Assembly (NCBI GenBank): GCA_902799075.1
Contig: CADBYZ010000001.1
Coordinates: forward strand, 22,149 to 86,148
Direction of reading: 5' to 3'
Origin: Oscillospiraceae bacterium
Lineage (GTDB): Bacteria; Bacillota; Clostridia; Oscillospirales; Oscillospiraceae
Length of the DNA stretch: 64,000 nt
Below the pieces are notes generated by a model. That model was not told the DNA's origin and did not search any database. It saw only the letters and a list, made by a program, of their open reading frames with translations. Shown in pieces: positions 33,723-38,866 of this stretch (position 1 is its first letter; each line of letters begins with the position of its first letter). Position numbers and translations under genes: made by a program.

Positions 33723-35424
33723 ATGCTCAACGAACTGCACATTGAAAATATTGCCGTCATCGAGCGCGCGGATCTGAGCTTCGGGCGCGGCCTGAACATC
33801 CTGACCGGCGAGACCGGCGCGGGCAAGTCCATCGTCATCGACTCCATCGGCGCGGTGCTGGGCGAACGGGTGAGCCGGGAGCTGGTGCGCCGCGGGGCGG
33901 AGAAGGGCAGCGTGACCGCGAGCTTCGACCTGGACGGCTGCGAGGACTGGCTTCGTGACAACGAGATCGACGCGGAGGATGAGCTCATCATCCAGCGCCG
34001 CATCAGCGCCGACGGGAAAAGCAGCTGCCGCGTCTGCGGCCTGCCCGTCACCGCCGCCCAGCTCAAGGAGCTTGCGGCGCTGCTCGTGGATATCCACGGC
34101 CAGAACGACGGCCGCCAGCTCATGGACGAGCGGCGGCACCGCGAATACCTGGACCGCTTCGGCACCGATCCCGCCGCCCTCGAGGCATACCGCGCCTGCT
34201 TCCGGCAGTACAGCGCCATCAAAAAAGAGCTCAACGCCCTGCAGATGGACGAGATCGAAAAGGAACGTCTGAGCGACAGCCTGCGCTACCAGATCGAGGA
34301 GCTGGAGCGGGCGGCGCTCAAGGCGGGGGAGTATGACACGATCTGCGCCCGGCGCGACCTTCTCCGAAACGCCGAGAAGCTCAGCGAGGCCCTGGACAGC
34401 GCCATCGCCATGCTCTCCGGCGACGAGGACAACGCCCTCACGCTCACCCAGAACGCGGCCTATTATGTCGGCAAGGCCGCGGCCTACGCCCCGGAGCTGG
34501 AAAGCGCGGGCGAGTCTCTCAACAGCGCCGCCTTCAGCATCTCCGACGCCGCCGAGAGCCTGCGGGATTTCCGCGAGAACCTGGACTTTTCTCCCGGCGA
34601 ATACGACAGCCTCGAGACGCGCATCTCGCTTTTATCAAAGCTCCAGCGCAAATACAACCGGGACGAGGACGCGCTCATTGACTATCTCTCGGAGTGCAAA
34701 GAGAAGCTTGACAACATCCAGTACGCCGACGAGCGCAGCGAGAAGCTGAGAAAGCAATTAAAGGAAGCATCTGACCGCTGCCGCACCGAGGCCGGACGCC
34801 TGAGCGAGACGCGCCGGAAGGCGGCAAAGCTCCTGGAAGCGCGCATCACGGACGAACTGAAACAGCTCAACATGCCCTCGGTCCGCTTCGCGGTGGAGTT
34901 TACGCCGCTCGAGGCCGAGCCGGGCTTTGACTTGAACGGCTGTGACGAGATCCGCTTCGTCATGTCCGCCAACGCCGGCGAAGCCCTGGGCCGCATCAGC
35001 CGCATTGCCTCCGGCGGTGAGCTCAGCCGCATCATGCTGGCGATGAAGAATGTCTTTGCCGAGAAGGACCCGGTGGCCACCATGATCTTTGACGAGATCG
35101 ACACCGGCGTCTCCGGCATTGCCGCCCAGCGGGTGGGGGAGAAGCTCTATTCCGTCTCCCTCGGCAAGCAGGTCATGTGCGTGACCCACCTGCCGCAGAT
35201 CCCACCTGCCGCAGATCGCCGCCATGGCCGACCAGCACTATCTCATCCGCAAGGAAGAGCGCGGCGGCAGAACCTACACCAACGTCTTCCCCCTCGACCG
35301 CGAGGGCCGCAGACAGGAGCTTGCCCGCCTGCACGGCGGCGACAACATCACCGAGACGACGCTTCTCAGCGCCGAGGAGCAGCTCGAAGCCTGCGAACGC
35401 TTCAAGGCGCGGCACGCGCGGTAA
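33723..35424 (+). pseudogene. recN: DNA repair protein RecN, frameshifted by a 16-bp tandem duplication
   Basis: RecN is an SMC-like ATPase in double-strand break repair. Walker A GETGAGKSIVIDS, the long coiled coil, ASGGELSRIMLA (signature) and MIFDEIDTGVSG (Walker B) are intact. After VMCVTHLPQI the unit CCACCTGCCGCAGATC occurs twice (35186-35201, 35202-35217). The extra 16 bp shift the frame, so the current product runs on to 35543 with an unrelated proline/arginine-rich tail. Removing one unit restores IAAMADQHYLIRKEE and a normal stop at 35424. Either a true null or phase-variable allele, or an assembly error. Confidence 0.9.
35186..35217. repeat. 16-bp tandem duplication in recN
   Basis: Two perfect copies of CCACCTGCCGCAGATC. 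One copy matches the expected coding sequence; the second causes the frameshift. Confidence 0.95.
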
Positions 35425-35591: not shown

Positions 35592-35640
35592 GAGCATGAT
35601 AATCTTTCCAGCATTATCTGAAAGGAGACTTATCATGCTC
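35592..35640 (+). promoter_or_regulatory. Stem-loop enclosing the recombinase ribosome site and start codon
   Basis: GAGCATGATAA (35592-35602) is perfectly complementary to TTATCATGCTC (35630-35640). The right arm holds the ATG at 35635 and the 27-nt loop holds AAAGGAG. It may limit translation or be a protein-binding dyad. Confidence 0.6.
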
Positions 35641-36471
35641 GAACTGACCACCGCGTCGCTGGACGCTTTTATAAAACATCTCAGGGAGCAGGAGTACAGC
35701 CCTGCCACGATTGCGAAATACGCCCATGATGTACAGACATTGATCCAGTACGCGCCGGAGGGGATCAGGGACAAGGAGCACTTGAACAGCTTTCGCGCCT
35801 GGTTGGAGGACAAGGGCTATTCCGGTGCAAGCGTCAATTCCATGCTGGGAGCGGTCAACTGTTATCTCGCCTTTCTCGGCTCGGACTGGCGGCTCAAATA
35901 TGTCCGCGTACAGCGCAGGGCCTTTTTACCGGCAGACCGAGAGCTGAACCGGAAGGAATACGAAAGTCTGGTTTCCGCCGCCTTAGAGCAGGGCGACAGA
36001 CGCCTGGCCCTGATCGTCCAGACGCTGTGCGCCCTCGGCCTGCGGATCAGCGAGTTGAAGGCCGTCACCGTGGAGAGCCTTGCCGCCGGAGAAGCAAGCA
36101 TACACAACAAGGGTAAGCTCCGCACGATCCTAATCCCCGACGCGCTGTGCAGGAAACTCCGCGCCTGGTGCCACGAGCGCGGCATACGCGCAGGCTGCGT
36201 CTTTGTCACCCGGACGGGCCGGGCGCTTGACCGCTCCAACGTCTGGAAGATGCTGAAACGGCTGGCGGAGGCGGCAAGGGTACTCAAAAAGAAAGTCTTT
36301 CCCCACAATCTGCGCCACCTTTTCGCCCGGACACATTATGAGCGTTTCAAGGACATTGTACGCCTTGCGGACATCCTCGGCCACAGCAGCATCGACACTA
36401 CCCGCATTTACACAGCCCGAAGCGGAAAAGAAGAGAGGCGGCAGCTTGGACAGCTCCGCCTCATCTTGTAA
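35635..36471 (+). CDS. Tyrosine recombinase (XerC/XerD-like)
   Basis: A 278-residue site-specific recombinase. The N-terminal SAM-like core-binding domain spans about 1-90. All catalytic residues are in place: Arg in ALGLRISELK, Lys in HNKGKLRT, H-x-x-R in FPHNLRHLFA, His in LGHSSIDTT and the nucleophile Tyr in TRIYTA. It is an orphan, with no phage genes. Just downstream lies a pair of 24-bp inverted repeats shaped like recombination sites, so it is the leading candidate for the enzyme that flips them. XerC/D housekeeping function is the alternative. Confidence 0.88.
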   Translation: MLELTTASLDAFIKHLREQEYSPATIAKYAHDVQTLIQYAPEGIRDKEHLNSFRAWLEDKGYSGASVNSMLGAVNCYLAFLGSDWRLKYVRVQRRAFLPADRELNRKEYESLVSAALEQGDRRLALIVQTLCALGLRISELKAVTVESLAAGEASIHNKGKLRTILIPDALCRKLRAWCHERGIRAGCVFVTRTGRALDRSNVWKMLKRLAEAARVLKKKVFPHNLRHLFARTHYERFKDIVRLADILGHSSIDTTRIYTARSGKEERRQLGQLRLIL

Positions 36472-36496
36472 GCGTATCGGGCAGGGGTTAAATCAA

Positions 36497-36525
36497 TTGA
36501 CAAAACACGGCGCAAAAGGTAGAAT
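36497..36525 (+). promoter_or_regulatory. Sense promoter of small-peptide cassette 1
   Basis: TTGACA, 17-nt spacer, TAGAAT. Identical to the promoter of cassette 2 at 36876. Confidence 0.8.
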
Positions 36526-36582
36526 GGAGACAACCTCGCAAGAGGCCACCGGAGCAATCCGGCGAAAGGTGCGCTGTTGAAT

Positions 36583-36711
36583 ATGGCGGGCGGTTGGCCA
36601 CTTCCCGGAAGGGAGGTGGGGCTTATGGAAAAGCGGAGAATCCTTCGCTTTGTGCTGTGCCTCATCGTGATCATTTTGATCATGCTGTACATAGCGCCAA
36701 AAGCTTATTGA
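36583..36711 (+). CDS. Small hydrophobic peptide, possible type I toxin, copy 1
   Basis: The likely product starts at ATG 36625 behind GGGAGGTGG and is 28 residues long: a basic start (MEKRRILRF), an 18-20 residue hydrophobic helix (VLCLIVIILIMLYI) and a short PKAY end. An in-frame ATG at 36583 would give 42 residues. In the mRNA CCACTTCCC can pair with GGGAGGTGG around GGAA, hiding the ribosome site. The layout, a single membrane helix with a hidden ribosome site and convergent antisense promoter, is that of type I toxins such as TxpA or Fst. No sequence family is recognised. Confidence 0.6.
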   Translation: MAGGWPLPGREVGLMEKRRILRFVLCLIVIILIMLYIAPKAY

Positions 36712-36724
36712 GCCTTTAAAAGCT

Positions 36725-36810
36725 CGTTGACCGCCCGGCTGTCCCCCGTGCGGTCAACATCTTAATTTGATCGTATAGGGCCAACCGTCAAATCAACAGC
36801 GCCCTTTTGT
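36725..36810 (-). ncRNA. Predicted antisense RNA, cassette 1
   Basis: Inferred from the minus-strand promoter at 36844-36817 and the hairpin at 36726-36758. The RNA would be about 85 nt and would cover the 3' end of the peptide message. Confidence 0.45.
36726..36758. terminator. Terminator-like hairpin, cassette 1
   Basis: GTTGACCGC pairs perfectly with GCGGTCAAC. It could end the antisense RNA leftward (followed there by GAGCTTTT) and the sense RNA rightward. Confidence 0.55.
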
Positions 36811-36816
36811 ATTTTC

Positions 36817-36844
36817 ATTATACCACGCGCCTGGGCTTTGTCAA
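36817..36844 (-). promoter_or_regulatory. Antisense promoter, cassette 1
   Basis: Minus strand TTGACA (36844-36839), 16-nt spacer, TATAAT (36822-36817): consensus at both boxes. Confidence 0.8.
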
Positions 36845-36875
36845 GCGGTGAAAATGCTGTCCCGGATGCAATCAA

Positions 36876-36904
36876 TTGACAAAACACGGCGCAAAAGGTA
36901 GAAT
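36876..36904 (+). promoter_or_regulatory. Sense promoter of small-peptide cassette 2
   Basis: TTGACA, 17-nt spacer, TAGAAT, same as cassette 1. Confidence 0.8.
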
Positions 36905-36961
36905 GGAGACAACCTCGCAAGAGGCCACCGGAGCAATCCGGCGAAAGGTGCGCTGTTGAAT

Positions 36962-37051
36962 ATGGCGGATAAGCGGAGAATCATTCGCTTTGTGCTGTGC
37001 CTCATCGTGATCGTTTTGATCATGCTGTACATAGCGCCTAAAGCTTACTGA
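36962..37051 (+). CDS. Small hydrophobic peptide, possible type I toxin, copy 2
   Basis: 29 residues: MADKRRIIRF, then a hydrophobic helix VLCLIVIVLIMLYI and PKAY. Only four positions differ from copy 1 in the shared part, mostly by conservative changes, and both frames stay open. That points to selection on the peptide. The ribosome site would be AAAGGTG, about 12 nt upstream. Confidence 0.55.
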   Translation: MADKRRIIRFVLCLIVIVLIMLYIAPKAY

Positions 37052-37064
37052 GCCTTTAAAAGCT

Positions 37065-37151
37065 CGTTGACCGCCCGGCTGATCCCCGTGCGGTCAACAT
37101 TATTTATGTAACTGTATCGGGCCAACCGTCAAATCAACAGCGCCCTTTTGT
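37065..37151 (-). ncRNA. Predicted antisense RNA, cassette 2
   Basis: Inferred from the promoter at 37185-37158 and the hairpin at 37066-37098, in the same geometry as copy 1. Confidence 0.42.
37066..37098. terminator. Terminator-like hairpin, cassette 2
   Basis: GTTGACCGC pairs with GCGGTCAAC, as in cassette 1. Confidence 0.5.
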
Positions 37152-37157
37152 ATATTC

Positions 37158-37185
37158 ATTATACCACGCGCCCGGGCTTTGTCAA
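37158..37185 (-). promoter_or_regulatory. Antisense promoter, cassette 2
   Basis: Minus strand TTGACA (37185-37180), 16-nt spacer, TATAAT (37163-37158). Confidence 0.8.
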
Positions 37186-37227
37186 GAGAAAGCGCCCGCG
37201 TTTTGCTTTTTTGCCTCATCCTGTAAT

Positions 37228-37251
37228 ACCACATACTGTGCATTATGTGGT
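37228..37251. repeat. Left inverted repeat / putative recombination site
   Basis: 24 bp: ACCACATA, 8-bp core CTGTGCAT, TATGTGGT. The 8-bp arms are perfect inverted copies around an asymmetric core, the plan of tyrosine-recombinase crossover sites. It is the exact reverse complement of 37469-37492. Confidence 0.85.
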
Positions 37252-37468
37252 ATTAAAAATCTACGAATTGTATTTTAACTGCTCTCGCCGTCAAAGTCAA
37301 TCCGCAATACATACAAGAAATTACATTTTTAGGCATACAGAACCAGCCGGAGACGATTTGTAATACGTTTCCGGCCATTGGTGCTGCCTTTTTGTGGGTC
37401 CTTTGCAGGGGACGGCCTGTTTTGCGGCGGGCTGTCGAGGGCGCCAGCCCCTACGAAGCGGGCGGTAA
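37252..37468. other. Putative invertible segment
   Basis: 217 bp between the inverted repeats with no gene. It holds a minus-strand promoter near its left end. If the segment flips, that promoter would sit next to the right repeat and read into the surface-protein gene at 37538. Confidence 0.65.
37272..37300 (-). promoter_or_regulatory. Promoter inside the invertible segment, facing away from the surface-protein gene
   Basis: Minus strand TTGACT (37300-37295), 17-nt spacer, TAAAAT (37277-37272). No comparable promoter pointing right was found between the segment and the gene. Confidence 0.65.
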
Positions 37469-37492
37469 ACCACATAATGCACAGTATGTGGT
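37469..37492. repeat. Right inverted repeat / putative recombination site
   Basis: 24 bp: ACCACATA, core ATGCACAG, TATGTGGT. The core is the reverse complement of the left core, so recombination between the two would invert, not delete, the segment. Confidence 0.85.
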
Positions 37493-37537
37493 ACAACGAA
37501 AGCCGAAGAAATTCGGAAAAAGTATGGAGGAAAGAAA

Positions 37538-38866
37538 ATGAAACAAAGAGGAATGAAAATCCTGGCCATGCTTCTCACGCTGGCGATGGTCGTCGGGCTG
37601 TTCCCCGGCATGAACATGACGGCGTATGCGGCTGGCGAAGACATCACTTCCAATATCACCATTAGGGTGAGTTCTTCTTGCAAAAGTGATGATTATACAG
37701 TATCCTCTTACGACAAGGGTGAATACACCGTAAAGGAGGGCGTGGTTGTCACTTTCAGGTGTGGTAAATGGTTTACGGATGCCGTTACGATTTACCTCAA
37801 TGGTACTGCGGTTGCAACGTGGCCAGGATATGACTACAACAGCAAATATGTCTGGACTGCGAAAAAGGACGCCAAGATCAACTGGGCAGGGTACAGTCAA
37901 TCTAGTGCGAACATCTATCTCACAGAAACTTCTACCGTCGATGTCACCGGCATAACCCTCGCCCCGGCTACAGCCGACATGACCGTGGGCGGCACGCAGA
38001 CGCTGACAGCCACCGTCGAACCTGTCAATGCTACGGACAAGACGGTGAAGTGGAGCGTCAGCGGGACAAACGCGGGTGCTGTGAAGCTATACTCCGACGC
38101 GGCTTGCACCGCCCCTCTTGCGTTAAATACAGCCATCGATACCCTGACCGTCTACGCCAAGGGCACGGCGGCGGGCAGCGCCACCGTTACCGTCACCAGC
38201 AACGCGGACGCAACCAAGAGCGCGTCCTGCGCCGTAACCGTGAGTGCGGTCACGTACACCGTGACCTATGATCCCGGCAGGGGTTCGGGAACGATGGAGC
38301 CCACAACGGTTTCAAAAAACGCTGCGGAGAAGTACATGTACACAGTCGAGAGCTGCGGCTTTACCGCACCCGACGGAAAGACCTTTGACTTTTGGAAAGG
38401 CAGCGACGACAAAGAATACAGAGTCGGCGGTGAGTACGAGCTGACCGGCGACATCACCCTCACGGCCCAGTGGAAGGAAGAGAAAAAGCCTGGCGACAGC
38501 GGCGAGAAAAAAACCTCCGACGGCGGCTCCGGCTTCGACCTCGTGTTCAACATCCCCGGCGAGGATAACTCCTGGGAGTATGTCGGCGGCTATGCCCCGC
38601 AGCAGGCGTACCGCGTGAGCCTTGCGCCCATGCAGGGCGGCAGCGCGGCCCTCGGCCTCACGACGGGCGATTCCGGCACGCAGATGAATGTCTACCCGTC
38701 CACGACGGTTTTTGTCTTCCCGAACGCGGAGCAGGGCTACACACTTGACAAGATCGTCTGGAGCCTCATCGACGGGTCGGCAAGCTATGACATCACCGAG
38801 GCGAAGAACTTCGTCATGCCCGCCATGGACGTGGTGGTCTACGTGACCTTCCGCCCCGTAGGGTAA
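37538..38866 (+). CDS. Secreted Big_2 / InlB-repeat protein
   Basis: A 442-residue exported protein. The signal peptide (MKQRGMKILAMLLTLAMVVG...TAYA) is cut before AGEDI. A lectin-like or beta-rich N-terminal part is followed by a Big_2 Ig-like domain (about 135-235, starting VTGITLAPATADMTVGG) and an InlB/Listeria-Bacteroides-type repeat (about 240-310, ending GDITLTAQW). The last 120 residues are unassigned. There is no LPXTG, SLH or other anchor, so it is probably released or held by non-covalent contacts. AGGAGG lies 9 nt before the ATG. It is the only gene directly downstream of the putative invertible promoter. Confidence 0.85.
   Translation: MKQRGMKILAMLLTLAMVVGLFPGMNMTAYAAGEDITSNITIRVSSSCKSDDYTVSSYDKGEYTVKEGVVVTFRCGKWFTDAVTIYLNGTAVATWPGYDYNSKYVWTAKKDAKINWAGYSQSSANIYLTETSTVDVTGITLAPATADMTVGGTQTLTATVEPVNATDKTVKWSVSGTNAGAVKLYSDAACTAPLALNTAIDTLTVYAKGTAAGSATVTVTSNADATKSASCAVTVSAVTYTVTYDPGRGSGTMEPTTVSKNAAEKYMYTVESCGFTAPDGKTFDFWKGSDDKEYRVGGEYELTGDITLTAQWKEEKKPGDSGEKKTSDGGSGFDLVFNIPGEDNSWEYVGGYAPQQAYRVSLAPMQGGSAALGLTTGDSGTQMNVYPSTTVFVFPNAEQGYTLDKIVWSLIDGSASYDITEAKNFVMPAMDVVVYVTFRPVG

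Follow-up and report, generated by a model that had tools for sequence, protein, structure and literature searches.

A tyrosine recombinase gene, a pair of inverted repeats and a gene for a secreted protein follow each other on one contig of an Oscillospiraceae bacterium, which raises the question of whether the short segment enclosed by the repeats is an invertible promoter that would switch the secreted protein on and off. The DNA analysed here (the window, 64,000 nucleotides) comes from a 2.4-Mb draft genome of 116 contigs that is about 76% complete. By recombinase similarity, the nearest named relatives are the MAGs Ruminococcaceae bacterium RUG13650, RUG11160, RUG14036 and RUG10684; we take the RUG series to be of rumen origin, and the host bacterium is probably a rumen member. 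The reading that we favour, with a probability of roughly 0.88, is a phase switch composed of an XerA-like tyrosine recombinase and an adjoining invertible promoter segment caught in the OFF orientation. This is what the initial annotation of the locus had proposed, and it gains support both from the anatomy of the locus and from a large family of related loci that share the order recombinase-repeat-segment-repeat, matched inverted cores and, usually, a single outward promoter.

In the mechanism that we propose, the recombinase would pair the two head-to-head 25-bp sites and exchange strands within their asymmetric core, inverting the DNA between them. The segment would carry one outward promoter at one end, with a terminator-like hairpin behind it. 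In the assembled orientation the promoter would point to the side of the recombinase, and the hairpin would impede transcription into the target, so that the secreted Big_2 protein would be OFF; upon inversion, RNA would start about 83 nt before the target ATG, giving the ON state. Flipping of the window copy, termination at the hairpin and expression of the target according to orientation would all follow from this scheme.

Anatomy of the locus

The features on which this reading rests are collected in Table 1. The two repeats are 100% complementary over 25 nt and lie, with the 217 nt that they enclose, between genes; the initial annotation, which had claimed exact 24-bp inverted repeats, was thus right about their exactness and one base short in their length. 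Its arms ACCACATA/TATGTGGT around the core CTGTGCAT were found as described, although the part of the core that varies freely is smaller than suggested: comparison with 108 family sites indicates that only the central 4 nt (GTGC in the window) vary freely, whereas the flanking CT and AT belong to the arms. The window arms are one base off the family consensus ACATAAT-N4-ATTATGT. As had been noted, the cores face in opposite directions: GTGC is identical in both sites, in an inverted arrangement, and this order of the cores predicts inversion rather than excision. A palindrome with any 8-nt core and at most 2 mismatches is found nowhere in the window beyond these two sites (0.06 expected), and a search of the host's own genome, about 76% complete, gave no further copy of the site within 2 mismatches. 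The outcome named in the initial annotation as speaking against a switch, namely widespread isolated single palindromes, was not what we observed, because the site (at most 2 mismatches) is present in just 4 of the 60 relative genomes searched, these being the host's own, G027, G035 and G002. Three of the four have a recombinase at least 82% identical to that of the window (82-97% for the two copies in G027 and the one in G035), and the fourth, G002, has one with 45% identity.

Table 1. Features of the candidate switch (positions in the window)
Feature	Position	Strand	Basis
Tyrosine recombinase gene, 278 aa, XerA/C/D-like, presumed invertase	35635..36471	+	Phage_integrase 6.3e-22
Left inverted repeat, candidate recombination site, core GTGC	37227..37251	+	Exact complement of right copy; fits family site
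Candidate invertible segment, 217 nt, drawn OFF	37252..37468	.	Between repeats; homologous to segments of L060, L061, L063, L042
Predicted promoter TTGACT-17-TAAAAT, reads out via left repeat, away from target	37272..37300	-	Consensus; counterparts in four nearest relatives
Strong hairpin, U-run on plus strand	37331..37395	.	Terminator-like both ways by folding-based scan; strict scans negative
Right inverted repeat, candidate recombination site	37469..37493	-	Exact complement of left copy; fits family site
Predicted leader after switch, GGAGG ribosome-binding site	37494..37537	+	Sequence reading; closely similar in L061, L063
Target gene, 442-aa protein, signal-peptide-like start, Big_2 Ig-like domain	37538..38866	+	Pfam, sequence reading

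The minus-strand promoter that had been placed near the left repeat is present, 20 nt from that repeat, and its counterparts lie 18-20 nt from theirs in all four nearest relatives; a second minus-strand candidate overlaps it. A consensus scan of the assembled orientation returned no plus-strand candidate starting between about 37190 and 37538. When the segment is inverted in silico, two promoter candidates face the target, and their RNAs would start about 83 and 78 nt before the ATG at 37538; a leader of about 80 nt had been estimated earlier. By consensus only, then, the promoter inside the segment would face the target in one orientation and not in the other. The hairpin behind it has a minimum free energy of -25.7 kcal/mol (z -4.0) on the plus strand and -24.5 kcal/mol (z -4.1) on the other. 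The strict perfect-stem scan called no terminator in the window segment, and an Rfam search of 36000-38000 gave no match up to an E value of 1.

The recombinase, described earlier as complete and encoded 0.8 kb upstream, is indeed of full length; its 278 codons occupy 35635-36468 and end 758 nt before the left repeat. Its best NCBIfam match is an XerA-type model (5.1e-41, below the cut-off of that model), compared with 9.9e-8 and 1.3e-5 for DNA-invertase models; NF007371 and NF007370, the DNA-invertase models that we take to be fim-type, score 31.7 and 24.9 bits (cut-offs 222 and 221), and the integron integrase model TIGR02249 scores 57.7 bits, below its cut-off of 265. The recombinase profile also matches the PDB chains 4a8e (XerC-like) and 5hxy (XerA). 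Residues R137, K161, H224, R227, H250 and Y259, presumably the catalytic positions, are invariant in an alignment of 17 recombinases. From the linkage of recombinases and sites across the family we infer that this protein would be the cognate enzyme of the two sites.

In the predicted target, the Big_2 domain is recovered by Pfam at 1.8e-8; the InlB repeat with which it had been paired in the initial annotation is not, Pfam being silent on it even at an E value of 1, and the target of the relative L063 matches List_Bact_rpt (3.8e-6). Between the recombinase gene and the left site we noticed two tandem modules (36491-36845 and 36870-37186), each of which combines a forward promoter of consensus type with a hydrophobic peptide of 28-29 aa and a hairpin; at its 3' end, a perfect TTGACA-16-TATAAT promoter lies on the other strand. 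This layout is that of a type I toxin-antitoxin pair. Similar modules occupy the same gap in L060, L061 and L063; there is no other copy in the host's own genome, and a search of 40 genomes (G027 and G035 excluded) produced only short matches. Further upstream, in the sequence as assembled, a 16-bp tandem duplication at 35185-35216 shifts the frame of a recN-like gene near its C-terminus.

A family of recombinases with adjoining inverted sites

A profile of 17 recombinases was used to search 394 genomes sampled across the order, with strong relatives defined at E values of at most 1e-45. The family is present in 115 of these genomes and in 75 of the 169 genera sampled. Altogether 148 loci were examined including the window (20 plus 120 fetched plus 10 named, minus the duplicates L040, L041 and L062). 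A qualifying pair was defined as inverted repeats that enclose 150-400 nt and lie no more than 800 nt away from the recombinase gene; 109 loci have one, with a median gap of 17 nt and a median segment of 235 nt. The 39 other loci, 26 of which run off the contig within 400 nt downstream while 13 do not, were left out of the orientation, promoter, terminator and tree analyses, for which the 109 were used. In a control count with one recombinase per locus and 1.5 kb downstream (n=119), an inverted-repeat pair was found downstream in 104 loci, compared with 0 of 357 shuffles, and pairs were rare elsewhere (3 of 114 control stretches further downstream, 1 of 26 upstream).

The sites of the family share one plan. 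All but one of the 109 left sites are centred on a dyad with the arms ACATAAT/ATTATGT, in which 12 of the 14 positions carry more than 1 bit, around a 4-nt core that is nearly free (less than 0.25 bit; 65 distinct cores in 108 sites). Strand exchange by tyrosine recombinases requires a core that is free to vary yet matched between the two sites. The two cores of a locus are the same in 107 of 108 cases, an agreement that the repeat finder itself favours; in a less biased sample of exact-pattern pairs 100-450 nt apart (n=38), the cores match in the inverted sense in 37, directly in none and not at all in one. Without three MITE-like pairs of G372, the inverted match holds for 34 of 35 pairs, again with no direct one, and for 29 of 29 loci. 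As a control in 34 genomes, the reversed pattern was matched in 1 genome and the true pattern in 29. Where one genome carries two switches, their cores differ in 32 of 37 pairs, which would keep same-genome switches from recombining together; the five pairs that share a core (in G027, G107 and, three times, G130) are exceptions.

Several departures from this plan were observed. Extra direct copies of the site occur 33-94 nt away in G053, G122, G129, G313, G190, G070 and G179, so that some loci have three sites, and such direct pairs could allow small deletions too. In G372, three inverted site-like pairs (L249, L250 and L251) have no family recombinase in the 4 kb read and adjoin genes read as SLH/S-layer-type. 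We considered these pairs as targets in trans and dropped the idea because two of them enclose long, MITE-like palindromes. Finally, L066, L068 and L069 from UBA3738 represent a variant with several copies in one genome and different arms (TCACGGAATG..), located before similar large secreted proteins.

The segments usually carry a single outward promoter. Promoters were called as consensus matches near a repeat at 9 or more of 12 positions (or, more strictly, 10 of 12). At the lower threshold, 67 of the 109 segments are OFF, 21 ON, 9 both and 12 none, an outward promoter being present in 97, whereas shuffled segments give about 15 OFF, 15 ON, 5 both and 74 none; with some 15 ON calls expected from shuffles, an individual ON call may be a chance match. 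The stricter threshold of 10 of 12 leaves 50 OFF, 16 ON, 43 none and 0 both. Left and right promoters are mutually exclusive (Fisher 9e-8).

The 88 loci called ON or OFF were used for the tree and the folding scan, the 21 labelled both or none being left out. The folding-based, looser scan predicts two-way terminators in 67 of the 88 segments compared with 6 of 88 after one shuffle, and the strict perfect-stem scan finds any terminator in 13 of 88 segments and in 6 of 48 gaps. Because the two scans differ so much, we base the terminator claim on the looser scan, for which a single shuffle served as control. Among the close loci, the looser scan calls the window and L061 in both directions, L042 in one, and L060 and L063 in the other. 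The gaps of 20-110 nt between recombinase and left site (48 loci) contain 19 leftward terminators, against about 5 in shuffles, and 1 rightward, suggesting that a promoter in the OFF position is often kept from running into the recombinase gene. In view of the 17-nt median gap we had asked whether the promoter, when OFF, acts as an antisense brake on recombinase expression; the enrichment of leftward terminators indicates that this is not general.

Evidence for inversion and its alternatives

All segments were aligned with each other, each drawn with its recombinase at the left. Among the 22 alignments of at least 150 nt, 19 are in the same orientation and 3 in the opposite one: L126 with L134 (87% over 191 nt), L126 with L139 (82% over 198 nt) and, within one genome, L180 with L183 (82% over 204 nt). 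L056 and L109 form a weaker and shorter opposite pair (80% over 85 nt). Homologous segments thus occur in both orientations in some sister loci, as judged from these alignments. The promoter points toward the target in L126 and away from it in L134 and L139, in each case 42-44 nt from the repeat; for L180 and L183, no promoter was called at 9 or more of 12. On a recombinase tree built by a quick method, in which 35 of 85 inner branches have less than 80% support, the ON/OFF state changes 17 times, near the shuffled mean of 19.2 (47-50 of 500 shuffles were as low), so that orientation carries little or no inheritance signal.

Contig ends point in the same direction. Within 400 nt of the recombinase, contigs end downstream in 18 and upstream in 6 of the 120 fetched family matches (one-sided p 0.011; three G042 matches that also break there are not included in the count), and 6 of the 18 downstream ends, read from the contig tails, fall within 5 nt of the inner edge of a site. 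Such breaks are expected if both orientations coexist in the sequenced DNA, although they may possibly have other causes. The assembly of Lachnoclostridium sp. An14, which does not carry the MAG label in its title, has a contig that stops 95 nt into the segment and a second one that begins 4 nt inside the right site. The split contigs of G127 were considered as proof of both orientations and did not provide it.

The main result against the window copy being an active switch comes from its nearest relatives. The initial annotation had suggested looking for both orientations in related genomes; these exist among the sister loci described above but not in the sub-clade of the window, where the window and L060, L061, L063 and L042 (two of the four in one genome) are all OFF. 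In these relatives the site pair is kept, always 3' of the recombinase. Over roughly its first 140 nt, which include promoter and hairpin, the window segment shares 78-98% identity with those of L060, L061 and L063; the L042 segment has 71% identity to that of the window over 139 nt further in, and the remaining segment is variable. The switch could therefore be real by descent and locked OFF in this sub-clade, with recombinase and sites that no longer cooperate and a target that is silent or otherwise promoted. Besides the five OFF loci out of five, the split of the L063 (RUG14036) recombinase into two reading-frame pieces, a changed arm base in one L060 copy and the small peptide modules that separate the recombinase gene from the left site in the window, L060, L061 and L063 fit this explanation, and the first two of these suggest that the switch may be decaying in some relatives. 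We nevertheless consider locking rather unlikely for the window, where a full-length recombinase retains its catalytic residues and both sites are identical, and the site pair has been maintained in L061, L063 and L042 despite recombinases that differ by up to 18%. Moreover, with 67 of 88 ON-or-OFF segments being OFF, five OFF in a row are unsurprising (about 0.26).

Two other explanations dispense with inversion. That a mobile element or an integron-like cassette system uses the repeats as its attachment sites is very improbable given matching asymmetric cores that are inverted in nearly all exact-pattern pairs and never direct, segments of only a couple of hundred nucleotides (median 235 nt) that mostly contain an outward promoter, and a scan of viral contigs in which none of 6 pattern stretches was a relative; these observations stand against the resemblance of the recombinase to XerA and, more weakly, to integron integrases, the location of the sister cassettes L126, L134 and L139 before different genes, and the extra direct site copies at some loci. 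It is scarcely credible that the repeats are operator or hairpin elements, either binding sites of a regulator or a MITE, next to an unrelated recombinase: the strong linkage of repeat pair and recombinase in the control count, the way in which the window site tracks its recombinase in the relatives searched and the lack of any long self-palindrome match within the window segment all disagree with it, even though each repeat is itself a near-palindrome and the recombinase-less G372 pairs include two MITE-like segments. The phase switch therefore remains our preferred reading of the locus.

Known switches and the genes behind the cassettes

Bacteroides invertible promoters differ from the window in phylum, repeats and promoter type. 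They reportedly precede surface genes of gut bacteria, in the account of Jiang et al. 2019. A closer parallel comes from the hCom2 community, in which inverton group 139 comprises 33 invertons, 32 of them in Clostridia and almost every one close to a tyrosine-type recombinase of invertase group 35 (Microbiome 2025; PMC11892184). Orientation ratios derived from reads shift in the course of passaging in Clostridium sp. D5 and Intestinimonas butyriciproducens, and two loci with printed coordinates have repeats 26 and 14 bp long that enclose 205 and 227 nt (PMC11892184). Group 139 and invertase group 35 resemble the window in host class, in the neighbouring recombinase and in repeat and segment size, the size match being a weak test because many invertons share such sizes. 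The group comes from other species, and the passages compared here include neither a rumen member nor an analysis of terminators or cores. To judge from host class, neighbour and size, group 139 is probably the same family as the window switch, which weakens the earlier remark that the locus, its repeats and its target were not recognisable, for the published Clostridia invertons probably cover this family.

Other characterized systems share parts of the design. The C. difficile RecV switches (cwpV and flagellar) likewise use a tyrosine recombinase of the XerC/D type, and cwpV has 21-bp imperfect repeats with 195 nt between them upstream of a cell wall protein gene (PMC2784873). There, however, recV is located away from cwpV, and the cwpV promoter is not part of the inverted region (PMC2784873). 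The window has its recombinase gene next to the segment and its promoter within it and is accordingly not of the RecV/cwpV type, although a terminator-like hairpin is also present in its segment. The E. coli fim switch (FimB/FimE) is similar in having a promoter in a short invertible segment, adjacent recombinase genes and orientation-dependent termination (PMC2784873), but has two recombinases where the window has one. In another survey, 14 of 15 inversion-positive Firmicutes samples were Clostridia (PMC5903667). Tyrosine-recombinase promoter switches are thus already known in gut bacteria and the window locus adds one; besides PMC11892184, the titles and abstract beginnings of the matches listed, mostly from the open literature, describe no such cassette in the order and no rumen case. 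What is new here is the family anatomy: cores that are free yet matched, a two-way terminator (by the loose scan) and leftward insulation in part of the loci. The locus adds a probable rumen member to the recombinase-linked promoter switches, and the family is defined, from sequence only, widely across a major order of gut Clostridia, for which most of the genomes used here are drafts. This definition (recombinase, arms, free but matched core, outward promoter and terminator-like hairpin) could be used to screen read sets for phase-variable surface and regulatory genes, and the freely varying cores could, if tested, serve as orthogonal inversion parts.

We suggest tentatively, and at somewhat less than even odds, that the locus is a copy of a self-contained portable cassette, made up of an XerA-like recombinase, matched-core sites and a promoter with a two-way terminator, that is spread over 75 of the 169 genera. 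On this suggestion the cassettes would precede unrelated genes, for surface proteins, SPFH, DUF4379 zinc-finger and pseudopilin-like proteins, a second recombinase and helicases, with TetR-like regulators also among the targets by sequence reading. Pfam was run on 98 of the 107 downstream proteins (9 were left out; L046, L066, L068 and L069 are cut short). Within the first 25 of 93 families, the matches include DUF4379 (11), List_Bact_rpt (9), SPFH (7), BspA-type LRR (6), the N-terminal methylation motif (5), signal peptidase, SLH and the phage-integrase N-domain (3 each), and GGDEF and a type III restriction helicase domain (2 each).

Two kinds of target deserve separate mention. The gene after the switch in L044, L148, L189 and L200 resembles a second, more distant tyrosine recombinase, so that one switch may control another recombinase. 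In L055 and L171 the switch precedes a gene that reads from its start as a helicase with restriction-like domains; these are possibly phase-variable defence genes, and two of the 98 proteins scanned match ResIII in Pfam.
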